Positions 42,906 through 46,079 of a stretch of DNA of 64,000 bases are shown here, in pieces. A program made the position numbers and the translations under genes. Source of the stretch: Bacteroidales bacterium (GTDB taxonomy: Bacteria > Bacteroidota > Bacteroidia > Bacteroidales > JAADJA01); assembly GCA_021740645.1 (NCBI GenBank), contig JAIOZL010000015.1:1-64000 (forward strand), written 5' to 3'. The notes beneath the pieces are model-generated. The model was not told where the DNA came from and did no database searches. It saw only the letters and a list, made by a program, of their open reading frames with translations. How positions within the stretch are numbered: the first letter of the stretch is position 1; each line of letters opens with the position of its first letter.

Positions 42906-43940
42906 TCATTCCTTATACAAAATATCCATATACACGGGCAGATGGTCGCTATAACCCCCCTCATATTTGAATCCATTATAAGTACGAAATGGCTTCTTTC
43001 CTAAATTTTTTTCATCTTCAACAAGTAAAAAATCTGGTGAATAAATTTGATAACCTGGTGCCCGAACACGAAGCCCATTATCTTTTTGCAATAAATTTCC
43101 TGAAACTATTATTTGATCAAATATATTCCACCCTTCCTGGAATTTAAGTGTCCCCTCTATACTTAAGTTGGTGTTAATGGATGCCATATCATATAGCGCC
43201 ATCGGATTCATTTTAAGTGTATCTGTTTTAACCATAAGTTCTTTCTGAAGGCTTTGATCCAGTGGGTCGTCGTTAAAGTCACCCATTATTATAATGTTAT
43301 TTTCAGCATTGACCTGCAGAAGTGAATCTGTAAACTGCCGGAGGATTCCGGCTGCTGCTTTTCGTTTTGGTATGGTCTCAAGATAACCGCCATAACGCGA
43401 GGGCCAGTGATTCACAAAAAGATGGAAAGTATCTTTCAATCCTATTGCTCCCTTAATGTAAAGTATATCCCGGGTGGTGGAAGTTGGGTCAAAGGAAAAG
43501 TCAATCCTTATCGGAAATGTTGTATCGACAACAATTTTATCCTTCCGGTATATACAGGCCACATCAATACCCCGCCGGTCAGGCGACTCATAATGGACAA
43601 CTTCATAACCGAATTTTTCTAATGGGGTATGATAGACCAACTGGTTCAGCACAAATCGGTTTTCAATTTCACAAAGGCCAATAATAGCAGGTGGTTCCCA
43701 CTCCCCCACCCCAATAATCACCTTATAAATATTGTTTAATTTCTTATAAAACTTGTTCTTGTTCCAATGCCTGTCACTACCAGGCAAAAACTCTTCATCC
43801 ATGGTAAGGGAATCATCTTCGGTATCAAACAAGTTCTCTACATTATAAAACATCACCCTAAGCGATTTACCTTCCTGTGCCGAAGCTAAAATCGTGAGCA
43901 AAAGTAAAAACGGGATGAAGCAACAAATACGCGTTTGCAT
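42906..43940 (-). CDS. secreted endonuclease/exonuclease/phosphatase-family protein
   Basis: 344 residues with a signal peptide (FIPFLLLLTILASAQ). The EEP fold is shown by RVMFYNVENLFDTEDD (Asn and Glu metal/substrate residues), GLCEIEN, YESPDRRGIDVACIYR, NHWPSRYGG (His), IIMGDFNDDPLD (Asp/Asn) and the closing YSDHLPVYMDI (Asp-His pair). These enzymes cut phosphodiesters in DNA, RNA, nucleotides or lipids; the exported location suggests extracellular nucleic-acid or phosphate scavenging. The substrate cannot be deduced. Confidence 0.87.
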   Translation of the reverse strand: MQTRICCFIPFLLLLTILASAQEGKSLRVMFYNVENLFDTEDDSLTMDEEFLPGSDRHWNKNKFYKKLNNIYKVIIGVGEWEPPAIIGLCEIENRFVLNQLVYHTPLEKFGYEVVHYESPDRRGIDVACIYRKDKIVVDTTFPIRIDFSFDPTSTTRDILYIKGAIGLKDTFHLFVNHWPSRYGGYLETIPKRKAAAGILRQFTDSLLQVNAENNIIIMGDFNDDPLDQSLQKELMVKTDTLKMNPMALYDMASINTNLSIEGTLKFQEGWNIFDQIIVSGNLLQKDNGLRVRAPGYQIYSPDFLLVEDEKNLGKKPFRTYNGFKYEGGYSDHLPVYMDILYKE

Positions 43941-43977
43941 GGTAGTGATGGTTTTAATATTCGGTCACCTAAAACCC

Positions 43978-44640
43978 ATTGGTTTAATTAAAAACAGAGC
44001 AAATTTAAGATTTTTAAGGGATAGTCAAACAGGTATATGAAAATTCTTTTGAATGATTTAGTTGTTTTTAAATACTTCTGTGTAAGTAACACCCCAGGCT
44101 TAACTTCAAAGAGAAACCACTCGAGTTTGGTGTTCTATTTCCCCCGCTGGCGGGGGTCAGGGGGTGGAATTCCCAGCATCTCCCTCCTAACCTCCGCCCA
44201 ATATTCTATTGTCCGTATAACATTACTGATGTCATTCAGCACTTCGCTATCCGTAAACCGTAATACTTTAAACCCAACCGCTTCCAGGTCTTTTTCTTTT
44301 CTAATGTCTTTGGCAACGGTTTCTTCAAATAGATGGGTAATACCATCAACTTCAATAATAAGCAGTAGTTCTTTACACATAAAATCTGCAATATAATTTA
44401 ACACAGGCCGCTGTCTTCTAAATTGCCAGCTTGACAATTTGCCTGCTTTCAGTGCATATTTCCAAAGGCAAGCCTCTGCCTTCGTCATGTTTTCTCGTAA
44501 CTGTCTGGCAAAGGGCTGAAGTTTTTTGTTGTAATGCCAATTGTTATTTGGCCCTGCTTGTTTGGTGTTTTGCATGTATTCTCCTCCCCCTAGCCCCCTC
44601 CTGAGGGGGAAAGCGGAAATATCAGTTCGACTAAAAATTT
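43978..44640. repeat. DUF559 cassette, unit 1 (complete)
   Basis: A 663-bp unit whose outer parts recur directly afterwards as unit 2 (44641-44930). The first ~194 bp match 44641-44834 (roughly 85-90% identical by eye) and the last ~100 bp match 44835-44930. It carries GC-rich palindromes on both sides of the nuclease gene: CCCCCGC-TG-GCGGGGG (44141-44156) overlapping the gene's 3' end, and CCCCCT-CCTG-AGGGGG (44594-44609) just before its start. Confidence 0.85.
44135..44575 (-). CDS. DUF559 endonuclease-like protein
   Basis: 146 residues of the DUF559 family, related to very-short-patch-repair (Vsr)-type endonucleases with a PD-(D/E)XK-like fold. Seen: ARQLRENMTKAEACLWKYALK (family N-terminal helix), WQFRRQRPVLNYIADFMCKELLLIIEVDG (the F-R-R-Q, D and E-x-D catalytic-type residues), and GFKVLRFTDSEVLNDISNVI. 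The C-terminus, PPPDPRQRGK and stop, is encoded inside the GC-rich palindrome. No methylase or other restriction partner is adjacent. The biological role of such orphan genes is unknown. The N-terminal 14 codons exist a second time in the deleted unit 2. Confidence 0.85.
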   Translation of the reverse strand: MQNTKQAGPNNNWHYNKKLQPFARQLRENMTKAEACLWKYALKAGKLSSWQFRRQRPVLNYIADFMCKELLLIIEVDGITHLFEETVAKDIRKEKDLEAVGFKVLRFTDSEVLNDISNVIRTIEYWAEVRREMLGIPPPDPRQRGK

Positions 44641-44930
44641 ATTGGTTTAATAAAGAACAAAACAAATTTAAGATTTTTCGGGGATAGTCAAATAGGTATA
44701 TGAAAATTCTTTTGAATGATTTAGATGTTATTAATATATCTATGTAAGTAACACCACGGGCTGTACCGCAAAGAGAAACCACTTGAGGTTTGTGTTCTAT
44801 TTCCCCCGCTGGCGGGGGCCAGGGGGTGGAATTTTTCGTTTAATGCCAGTTGTTGTTTGGCCCTGCTTGTTTGGTGTTTTGCATGTGTCCTCCTCCCCCT
44901 AGCCCCCTCCTGAGGGGGAAAGTGGTAAAT
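44641..44930. repeat. DUF559 cassette, unit 2 (internally deleted copy)
   Basis: A direct tandem copy of unit 1 lacking about 350 bp that correspond to roughly 44172-44520, i.e. most of the nuclease gene. Both palindromes remain (44803-44818 and 44903-44918), as does the stretch encoding the gene's first 14 residues. Confidence 0.85.
44840..44884 (-). pseudogene. 14-codon remnant of DUF559 gene in unit 2
   Basis: From ATG (44884-44882) it reads MQNTKQAGPNNNWH then TAA, identical to the start of the intact gene at 44575, after which the deletion junction follows. It marks unit 2 as a decayed copy. Confidence 0.8.
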
Positions 44931-45014
44931 CCGGAAGCATTATTGAAAAGAATACAGATAGGGTTACGTTGGGTTTTCAGCCACACGAAGCCTTACTTAT
45001 TAGGTGGCGTTTTT

Positions 45015-46079
45015 TTATTCTTCTAATTTATTTAATTTGTCTATTATATTATATTTCACCTGTCTTTCCTTCCACCTATCCCTTGCATATTTTTGCATAT
45101 CAACTATGGTATCGGTTTCATCAATTATCTCCAGGCCAAGCATGGTTTCAATAATATCTTCCATAGTTACAATTCCGTCTAAACCACCATATTCATCAAC
45201 AATTAAGGCAATATGTTCTTTTTTTTCCAAAAGATTTTCCCACAATGCAAATAGAACTATACTATTTGGAACTACAACTATCTCTCGTTTAACATCTTTT
45301 AATGTTAAATTATGTTGGTCTTCTGCCAGTTTTTCAAAAACTTCCTGCCTAAATACATACCCTGTTATATTTTCATCATTTTCTGAATATACGGGGATGC
45401 GCGAGAATCTTAAATAATCTTTATTCTTAAAAAAGTCTGTCAGATTTAAATTCTCATCTGCAACAGCAACAACCACTCTTGGTGTCATTATTTCTGTAAC
45501 TTTTACATTCTTAAGCCGAAGTAAATTTTGAATTATTTTGTGCTCTTTATTTGAAAAAATGCCTTCATCTGCTCCTATATTTGCTAATGCTGCAATTTCT
45601 TCTCTGCTGGTGGTTTGCTCTTGCCTGCTTTTTGAAATTAGTTTTGTAATGACTGCTGACATAACAACCAATGGATAGGTAATAATTATCATGACATGTA
45701 TAATTCGGGAAGACATCCTTGCCAGGTATCTCCAATATCTGGCACCAATCGTTTTTGGGATTATTTCTGTGATCACCAATATTAAAATTGTTAAAATAGC
45801 TGATACGATACCAAAGGAAGCATCGCCGTATATTTTAACTGCTTGTGCTCCAACTCCAGCAGCACCAACTGTATGTGCAACCGTATTTAATGATAAAATG
45901 GCAGATAAAGGTTTATCAATATTGGTTTTTAAATCAACAAATGATTTTGCCCATGTATTTTCATTTTCATACTTAGCAATCAAGAAGGATTGAGGTGTTG
46001 AAAGAAGCACCGCTTCCATTATAGAGCAGAGGAATGAAACAAATAGTGCCAGAAATAAATAGAAAAAAAGTAATATCAT
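45015..46079 (-). CDS. CNNM/CorC-type membrane protein with CBS domains
   Basis: 354 residues. The N-terminal CNNM (DUF21) domain (about 1-145) has three or four hydrophobic helices with SIMEAVLLSTPQ, ILSLNTVAHTVGAAG and ITEIIPKTIGARYW, the family's ion-path region. Two CBS motifs follow (about 195-320), with VTEIMTPRVVV, SRIPVYSEN and LIVDEYGGLDGIVTMEDIIETMLG. The C-terminal CorC_HlyC domain of longer members is missing. Relatives transport or sense Mg2+ or Na+; the older name is hemolysin-like. A TAAATTTG box (46091-46098, minus strand) precedes the start by 12 nt. Confidence 0.87.
   Translation of the reverse strand: MILLFFYLFLALFVSFLCSIMEAVLLSTPQSFLIAKYENENTWAKSFVDLKTNIDKPLSAILSLNTVAHTVGAAGVGAQAVKIYGDASFGIVSAILTILILVITEIIPKTIGARYWRYLARMSSRIIHVMIIITYPLVVMSAVITKLISKSRQEQTTSREEIAALANIGADEGIFSNKEHKIIQNLLRLKNVKVTEIMTPRVVVAVADENLNLTDFFKNKDYLRFSRIPVYSENDENITGYVFRQEVFEKLAEDQHNLTLKDVKREIVVVPNSIVLFALWENLLEKKEHIALIVDEYGGLDGIVTMEDIIETMLGLEIIDETDTIVDMQKYARDRWKERQVKYNIIDKLNKLEE

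Follow-up and report, generated by a model that had tools for sequence, protein, structure and literature searches.

A DUF559 nuclease gene between inverted palindromes in a Bacteroidales genome looks like a small mobile module of a widespread, little-noticed type

The window analysed here, a 64,000-nucleotide stretch of DNA from a Bacteroidales bacterium (GenBank assembly GCA_021740645.1, contig JAIOZL010000015.1), contains a DUF559 nuclease gene enclosed by two GC-rich palindromes, as an initial annotation had described; the features are collected in Table 1. The encoded protein scores 105.9 bits against PF04480 (curated cut-off 20.6), its only other Pfam match, to MTES_1575, is weak, and it has D64, E75, D77 and H81, which belong to the invariant columns of the alignment. 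The final codons and the stop of the gene run through the left palindrome, CCCCCGCTGGCGGGGG, so the 3′ end lies inside a palindrome, as claimed earlier. A further C/G run is found on the gene side of each hairpin, and the two module ends are therefore inverted copies of one plan, with the hairpin outside and the tail inside.

Table 1 Features of the nuclease–palindrome locus, with positions counted from the first nucleotide of the window
Feature	Position	Strand	Remarks
Full module (palindrome, DUF559 gene, inverted palindrome)	44141-44609	-	469 bp; limits of congeneric homology
DUF559 nuclease gene (Vsr-like, PD-(D/E)XK), 146 aa	44135-44575	-	PF04480, E = 1.3e-30
Left palindrome CCCCCGCTGGCGGGGG	44141-44156	.	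gene-side tail to about 44170
Right palindrome CCCCCTCCTGAGGGGG	44594-44609	.	gene-side tail CCTCCCCCTAG
Gene-less module derivative	44803-44918	-	116 bp; two palindromes retained; 14 codons, then stop
Unit 2 left palindrome	44803-44818	.	exact 16-mer match to CCCCCGCTGGCGGGGG
Unit 2 right palindrome	44903-44918	.	exact 16-mer match to CCCCCTCCTGAGGGGG
Tandem unit 1 (local flank and full module)	43971-44633	+	663 bp; direct repeats
Tandem unit 2 (flank copy and gene-less module)	44634-44928	+	295 bp; direct repeats

The tandem cassette of the initial annotation is recovered with limits at most 7 bp from those given there, and its units are connected by direct repeats at 43971–44071/44634–44734 (88%), 44066–44171/44728–44833 (86%) and 44523–44619/44832–44928 (91%). 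From the spacing of the repeats, 309 and not 663, it follows that 354 bp of the gene are missing from unit 2, close to the earlier estimate of about 350 bp, and the codons that are left, MQNTKQAGPNNNWH, are followed by a stop. Palindrome plus tail is identical between the units at 30/31 and 31/31 positions (61/62 together), the gene remnant at 50/54 and the local flank at 143/165 (22 differences); the higher conservation of the palindromes relative to the flank (one-sided Fisher p = 0.005) is in agreement with the earlier view that the palindromes are kept while the rest drifts. Single-stranded DNA folding of the four palindromes gave z-scores of −1.5, −0.1, −3.8 and −0.3 against dinucleotide shuffles, and since three of the four are not clearly beyond the shuffles, hairpin energy is left unused and the paired and conserved arrangement is taken as the evidence.

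The 16-mers CCCCCTCCTGAGGGGG and CCCCCGCTGGCGGGGG have two exact occurrences each in the 5.06-Mb genome, only in these units, and contig C33 has a related palindrome pair that lacks DUF559. The expectation of further copies thus holds for five congeneric genomes (see below), and is limited in the window's own genome to the related C33 pair, with no further exact copies. Elsewhere in this genome a second DUF559 gene (L058), interrupted by the end of contig C51, adjoins tandem units of about 164 bp with CTCCCTCTCCTCTCAGGAGAGGG palindromes, and a third DUF559 domain (L002/L060, contig C39) is C-terminal in a Pyr_redox_2/4Fe-4S protein, with an upstream palindrome in frame and a downstream palindrome past the stop.

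A profile built from 26 sequences (A3) matches the structures 3hrl, an 'Endonuclease-Like Protein' (E = 4.7e-33), and 3r3p, a 'Mobile intron protein' (E = 1.2e-5) that we take to be I-Bth0305I of the EDxHD family. PADLOC returned two weak matches for the window nuclease, one of them to an HEase model (E = 4e-5, 21.4 bits), and none for its two neighbours, and a defence system was rejected on these grounds; an RNA family was likewise rejected, as the two Rfam matches fall far under their gathering scores. That members of the DUF559 family can act on DNA in vivo is indicated by VsrA of Caulobacter, a DUF559 protein that causes SOS induction without a cytosine methyltransferase (PMC12907096). Among publications that use the word DUF559, searched by titles and beginnings of abstracts and mostly outside subscription papers and preprints, none deals in those parts with palindromes or mobility.

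Of 5426 genomes, 3365 have a match to the DUF559 gene ycjD of E. coli (L120, L341), whose neighbours are sapF and fabI; C/G hairpins lie downstream of ycjD, and an 81-bp palindrome-bearing stretch downstream of it has matches in 5100 genomes, at a median of 4 places each. Two genomes in which the match stops in sapF were considered as a clean empty site of ycjD and rejected; sapF is followed there by efflux genes, which points to a replacement.

Comparison of 60 stretches, 4 from the own genome and 56 from relatives, and mostly, not always, chosen around standalone DUF559 matches, identifies close relatives of the window gene at five congeneric loci (L083, L087, L091, L103 and L110; the L103 and L110 copies are broken or partial). 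Nucleotide identity to the window is 70–76% over 295–501 bp and is confined to the module, and the homology stops at one or both palindromes: it spans 44135–44610 in L103 and 44133–44627 in L091, runs from the left palindrome to near the start codon in L083 (44137–44563) and L087 (44138–44562), and covers only 44318–44610 in L110. None of four neighbouring window proteins has a tblastn match at these five loci. By comparison, the putative module is thus shown as a unit that ends at the palindromes and stands in unrelated surroundings. The left flank of about 165 bp is not shared by the congeneric copies, and the tandem unit is therefore a duplication of local extent, with the module inside it; of the multiplying nuclease-plus-palindrome unit proposed initially, the recurrence in unrelated places of five congeners stands, and the left flank falls outside.

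Right-end palindromes with at most 3 mismatches number 13 in the genus, distributed over 9 of 17 genomes, with 0 for the reversed control. Six of the 13 loci have a full or near-full DUF559 gene (five genes, because one locus is unit 2, with the gene in its neighbour), one has a remnant, and six, including both members of the C33 pair, have none in the compared locus. At four loci without DUF559 (L298, L300, L301 and L305) the palindrome is all that is common with the window, over 27–36 bp and with a best match of 96–97%; L300 is a gene-less module of 139 bp that has both ends, similar to unit 2 (116 bp). Gene-less palindromes are also found in the same-genus genome G015, where a palindrome–spacer–palindrome stretch beside the L067 DUF559 gene has at least 13 matches in its own genome: among those listed, 2 flank the DUF559 gene and 11 lie on six other contigs, without DUF559 in their loci. 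Searched in the other 16 genomes (best 40 candidates each), this stretch gave no match in 14 and one short match in each of 2. The G015 set and L300 extend the reading of unit 2 as a gene-less derivative to copies elsewhere.

Inspection by eye of the window-family copies reveals no target-site duplication at their ends, and no exact empty site was found at the DNA level. The syntenic empty sites that the initial annotation had envisaged did not appear, as the adjacency of the window neighbours is not kept in relatives: both neighbour genes have relatives, but these are not on one contig or are widely separated, and of the stretch 43940–45050 the beginning of the CNNM gene was all that aligned. 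Taken alone, the two units of the window are explained by a plain segmental duplication of 663 bp amid GC-rich repeats followed by decay of one copy through a 354-bp internal deletion, with nothing mobile; this account fails, however, for the module in unrelated surroundings of five congeners, for the gene-less copies elsewhere and for the cross-phylum and in-frame cases described below, and we find it barely credible.

The association of palindromes with DUF559 genes was followed in 141 full-length DUF559 domains, of which 51 come from the Bacteroidales stretches and the window together, 11 from plasmid/phage records (11 of 48 with a match) and 79 from GTDB loci (the best 80 of 569 confirmed loci). 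The sample was not picked by flanks, and its GTDB part was picked by similarity to ten Bacteroidales proteins. For the hairpin counts, we excluded two duplicates together with those cases whose flanks were short, and non-overlapping positions on the same contigs served as controls. CCC/GGG hairpins within 200 bp on both sides accompany 43/97 standalone and 23/33 in-frame domains versus 1/405 controls, which bears out the proposed companionship of palindromes and DUF559 genes; with CCCC/GGGG hairpins within 250 bp the counts are 32/97, 11/33 and 0/288. A CCC/GGG hairpin on at least one side is present at 78/97 standalone and 27/33 in-frame domains; both-side hairpins were not recognised at 54/97 standalone genes, of which 19 have no recognised hairpin on either side. 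The architecture is seen in Cyanobacteria, Chloroflexi, Proteobacteria, Deinococcus and Omnitrophota, and is weak or one-sided at several loci from plasmid records (e.g., L119 and L120). Under the strict hairpin rule, GIY-YIG genes of the same relatives gave 0/20 (20 of 30 loci were long enough).

The two ends of an element resemble each other in inverted orientation with a mean score of 34.0 versus 18.3 across elements, and own ends exceed the 99th percentile in 27/132 elements versus 0/1451 overlapping control positions. The own partner is the best end match in only 26/132 elements, and direct-orientation matches are about as frequent as inverted ones (24/132 versus 27/132), which fits genes that lie within arrays of repeated units. 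Similarity of palindromes follows similarity of proteins over 67 elements (Spearman 0.44, or 0.34 where identity is less than 55%; the p-value of 0.002 is the minimum possible with 499 permutations), an agreement for which shared descent alone could be sufficient.

These data bear on the proposal that the palindromes are independent REP-like elements moved by another enzyme such as a Y1 transposase, with DUF559 as a neighbour or passenger. The proposal accommodates the gene-less palindromes that occur alone, and the genome of the window has three Y1_Tnp matches (L293–L295), which could in principle act on the palindromes; intragenic REPs without genes of their own are also known (PMC3733652). 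However, both-side hairpins occur far above control in several phyla, palindrome sequences change along with the nuclease lineage, and the Y1_Tnp matches are located on other contigs (C57, C14 and C43) that have no match to the palindromes or the unit. We consider this proposal unlikely.

Direct repeats with a minimum length of 80 bp are present at 37/94 standalone DUF559 loci, 1/31 in-frame loci and 0/68 controls (counts that include duplicates), as well as at 16/30 GIY-YIG genes. Nuclease genes of this kind are thus often accompanied by duplications like that of the window. Duplication of the flanks is perhaps a by-product of breaks. Several GIY-YIG genes lie between CTTCGACAGGCTCAG...-type repeats or duplicated tRNA-like pieces (L309, L311 and L316, in the flanks; L315 and L317), and an apparent tandem triplication is seen at L327 (G040, contig C20), with three equal-score GIY-YIG matches at 354-bp spacing; GIY-YIG genes with flanking repeats are perhaps a second nuclease–repeat module.

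A stop-to-stop frame of at least 300 aa surrounds 35 of the 141 DUF559 domains, and comparison shows that the predicted modules sit either between genes or in frame within large ORFs. Hosts assigned by Pfam or PDB matches include IleRS (L166), ValRS (L173) and MetH (L181), as well as HsdM, HsdR, HsdS, Eco57I-type enzymes, a DUF1156 protein, PIG-L and others; LeuRS is the host at five more loci (L033, L034, L041, L043 and L047). In Pedobacter, DUF559 shares one frame with about 270 further residues, which at L136 are a HisF-like His_biosynth domain, and the same frame layout recurs at seven more loci (L131, L132, L134, L149, L154, L157 and L180). Alignment with homologues by phmmer places the insert at query residues 299–440 in LeuRS (between residues 236 and 242 of 2v0c), 784–965 in MetH (between 956 and 959 of 9ssp), 627–784 in IleRS (between 531 and 541 of 8c8w) and 496–681 in HsdM (between 495 and 505 of 3khk). 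In all four the host match resumes behind the module and both palindromes are translated through. The LeuRS of L034 has one other gap, of 59 residues and without a palindrome, which is ordinary variation. The LeuRS linker is readable at 19 of 30 loci of relatives, where it measures 13–18 aa in 15 and 150–175 aa in 4; counting L041 and L047, the insert of about 150–180 aa is found in six genomes. The same IleRS and HsdM each carry, at a second place, a lone in-frame palindrome. The in-frame proteins that were scanned show host domains and DUF559, and no intein model.

The tree of the DUF559 domains was computed from 142 rows and 105 columns; 42 of its 139 inner branches are open and the bootstrap is not quite settled. 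It clusters the window row with L083, L087 and L091 (100/96). Modules of different hosts appear as sisters, namely those of HsdR in L143 and HsdM in L147 (100/93), and the IleRS module of L166 is sister to the LeuRS rows (100/96). Labelling the rows as free or in-frame needs 8 changes, of which at least 6 are forced; the host labels of seven HisF rows, L176 and L183 derive from layout or likeness and not from a scan. The LeuRS modules (5 rows) and the HisF modules (8 rows) form one clade each, and perhaps represent single old insertions that were inherited vertically.

Many of the in-frame hosts are methylases, specificity subunits or restriction subunits of restriction–modification systems, as would be expected of a domesticated DUF559 domain that is fused to or placed beside such genes, with the palindromes as linkers, terminators or recombination scars. 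The nuclease has, however, no obvious use in the LeuRS, IleRS, ValRS, MetH and HisF-like hosts, nuclease-free palindromes occur in frame in the same IleRS and HsdM, modules of different host genes are sisters in the tree, and palindromes that are translated within ORFs are not terminators there; domestication is therefore a quite improbable explanation.

Among known systems, one close likeness is to the REPtron (RAYT/REP, related to IS200/IS605), in which, too, a single small gene encodes an enzyme that cuts DNA and has inverted tailed palindromes on either side; single and paired gene-less palindromes elsewhere, palindromes that vary from lineage to lineage and intragenic copies are further shared traits (REP features from PMC3733652). 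The enzyme of the window is, in contrast, a DUF559 PD-(D/E)XK nuclease and not a Y1 HUH transposase, the DUF559 gene itself may sit in frame within host ORFs, and GTAG is absent from the hairpin foot in the window family, where the tail reads CTAG, CTGA, CTAA or CTGG. Because Y1 transposase and GTAG tag are both absent, we do not file the window module under RAYT/REP: the candidate module would function like such a system, and is not one.

Vsr-related homing endonucleases share detectable homology (3r3p) and the recurrence of modules at one site of conserved genes, and PMC11878797 reports a VSR-type nuclease within group I introns of phages. They differ in that the insert of the DUF559 module is translated within the host protein, with no intein model in the proteins scanned, and in that palindromes frame the module, which has intergenic copies too. 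PMC3733652 already describes palindromic elements that keep the frame of protein genes and are translated along with them, and says that CGTC REPs have no dedicated transposase; Rickettsia palindromic elements and intragenic CGTC/GTAG REPs resemble the present case in that they lie in frame, but they are, by the same source, short and gene-less, whereas the DUF559 module carries a nuclease gene and C/G-run palindromes. No nuclease gene carried in frame by a palindromic element was encountered in literature searches that covered mainly open-access papers and no preprints. Like MITEs, the gene-less internal-deletion derivatives unit 2 and L300 keep both terminal inverted repeats and have a full-length parent; unlike in MITEs, the DUF559 parent encodes no transposase and no target-site duplication is seen by eye.

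The window is thus probably the site of a small mobile module, in which a homing-type DUF559 nuclease gene lies between inverted copies of a REP-like sequence and spreads by means of its own palindromes; the REP-like end sequence consists of a hairpin of C/G runs and, towards the gene, a C-rich tail. From comparison of loci we infer that the module moves, and that the predicted DUF559 nuclease recognises the palindromes, cuts and has the copy joined. The nuclease would recognise its own palindromes, or targets that resemble them, and would then cut either the donor or the target; through repair or replication by the host, the segment delimited by the palindromes would be copied into the break. 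Copies that disrupt a needed gene would be lost, and so only stop-free copies that keep the frame would remain inside genes, where the GC-rich palindromes would be read through as protein linkers. Breaks at palindromes may also explain the frequent tandem duplications of flanks at standalone copies, and unit 2 would be a tandem copy in which the gene was deleted between the palindromes, and which a full copy might conceivably still mobilise in trans, as the initial annotation had supposed. The interpretation given in the initial annotation is in this way borne out in part, and the in-frame copies inside essential genes go beyond it.

On the evidence of the sequences compared, DUF559 modules seem to be a small kind of mobile DNA that has drawn little notice and is widespread among many bacteria. 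The broader reading, to which we give about even credence, is that of cross-phylum selfish DNA, in which a homing-type nuclease that is not a transposase and its own palindromes would spread together, insert between genes as well as, without splicing, in frame within essential genes, and shed gene-less palindromes, with the nuclease as the dedicated enzyme for a group of palindromic repeats made of C/G runs. Bacterial genomes have palindromic repeats at many scattered places, and some classes, such as the CGTC REPs, have no known mobilising enzyme (PMC3733652); the linked nuclease, if this broader reading is true, would give one class its enzyme. A whole nuclease gene in frame in aminoacyl-tRNA synthetases and MetH would then represent survival in essential genes without splicing, and, for annotation, 'DUF559 domains' in aminoacyl-tRNA synthetases or MetH may be insertions.
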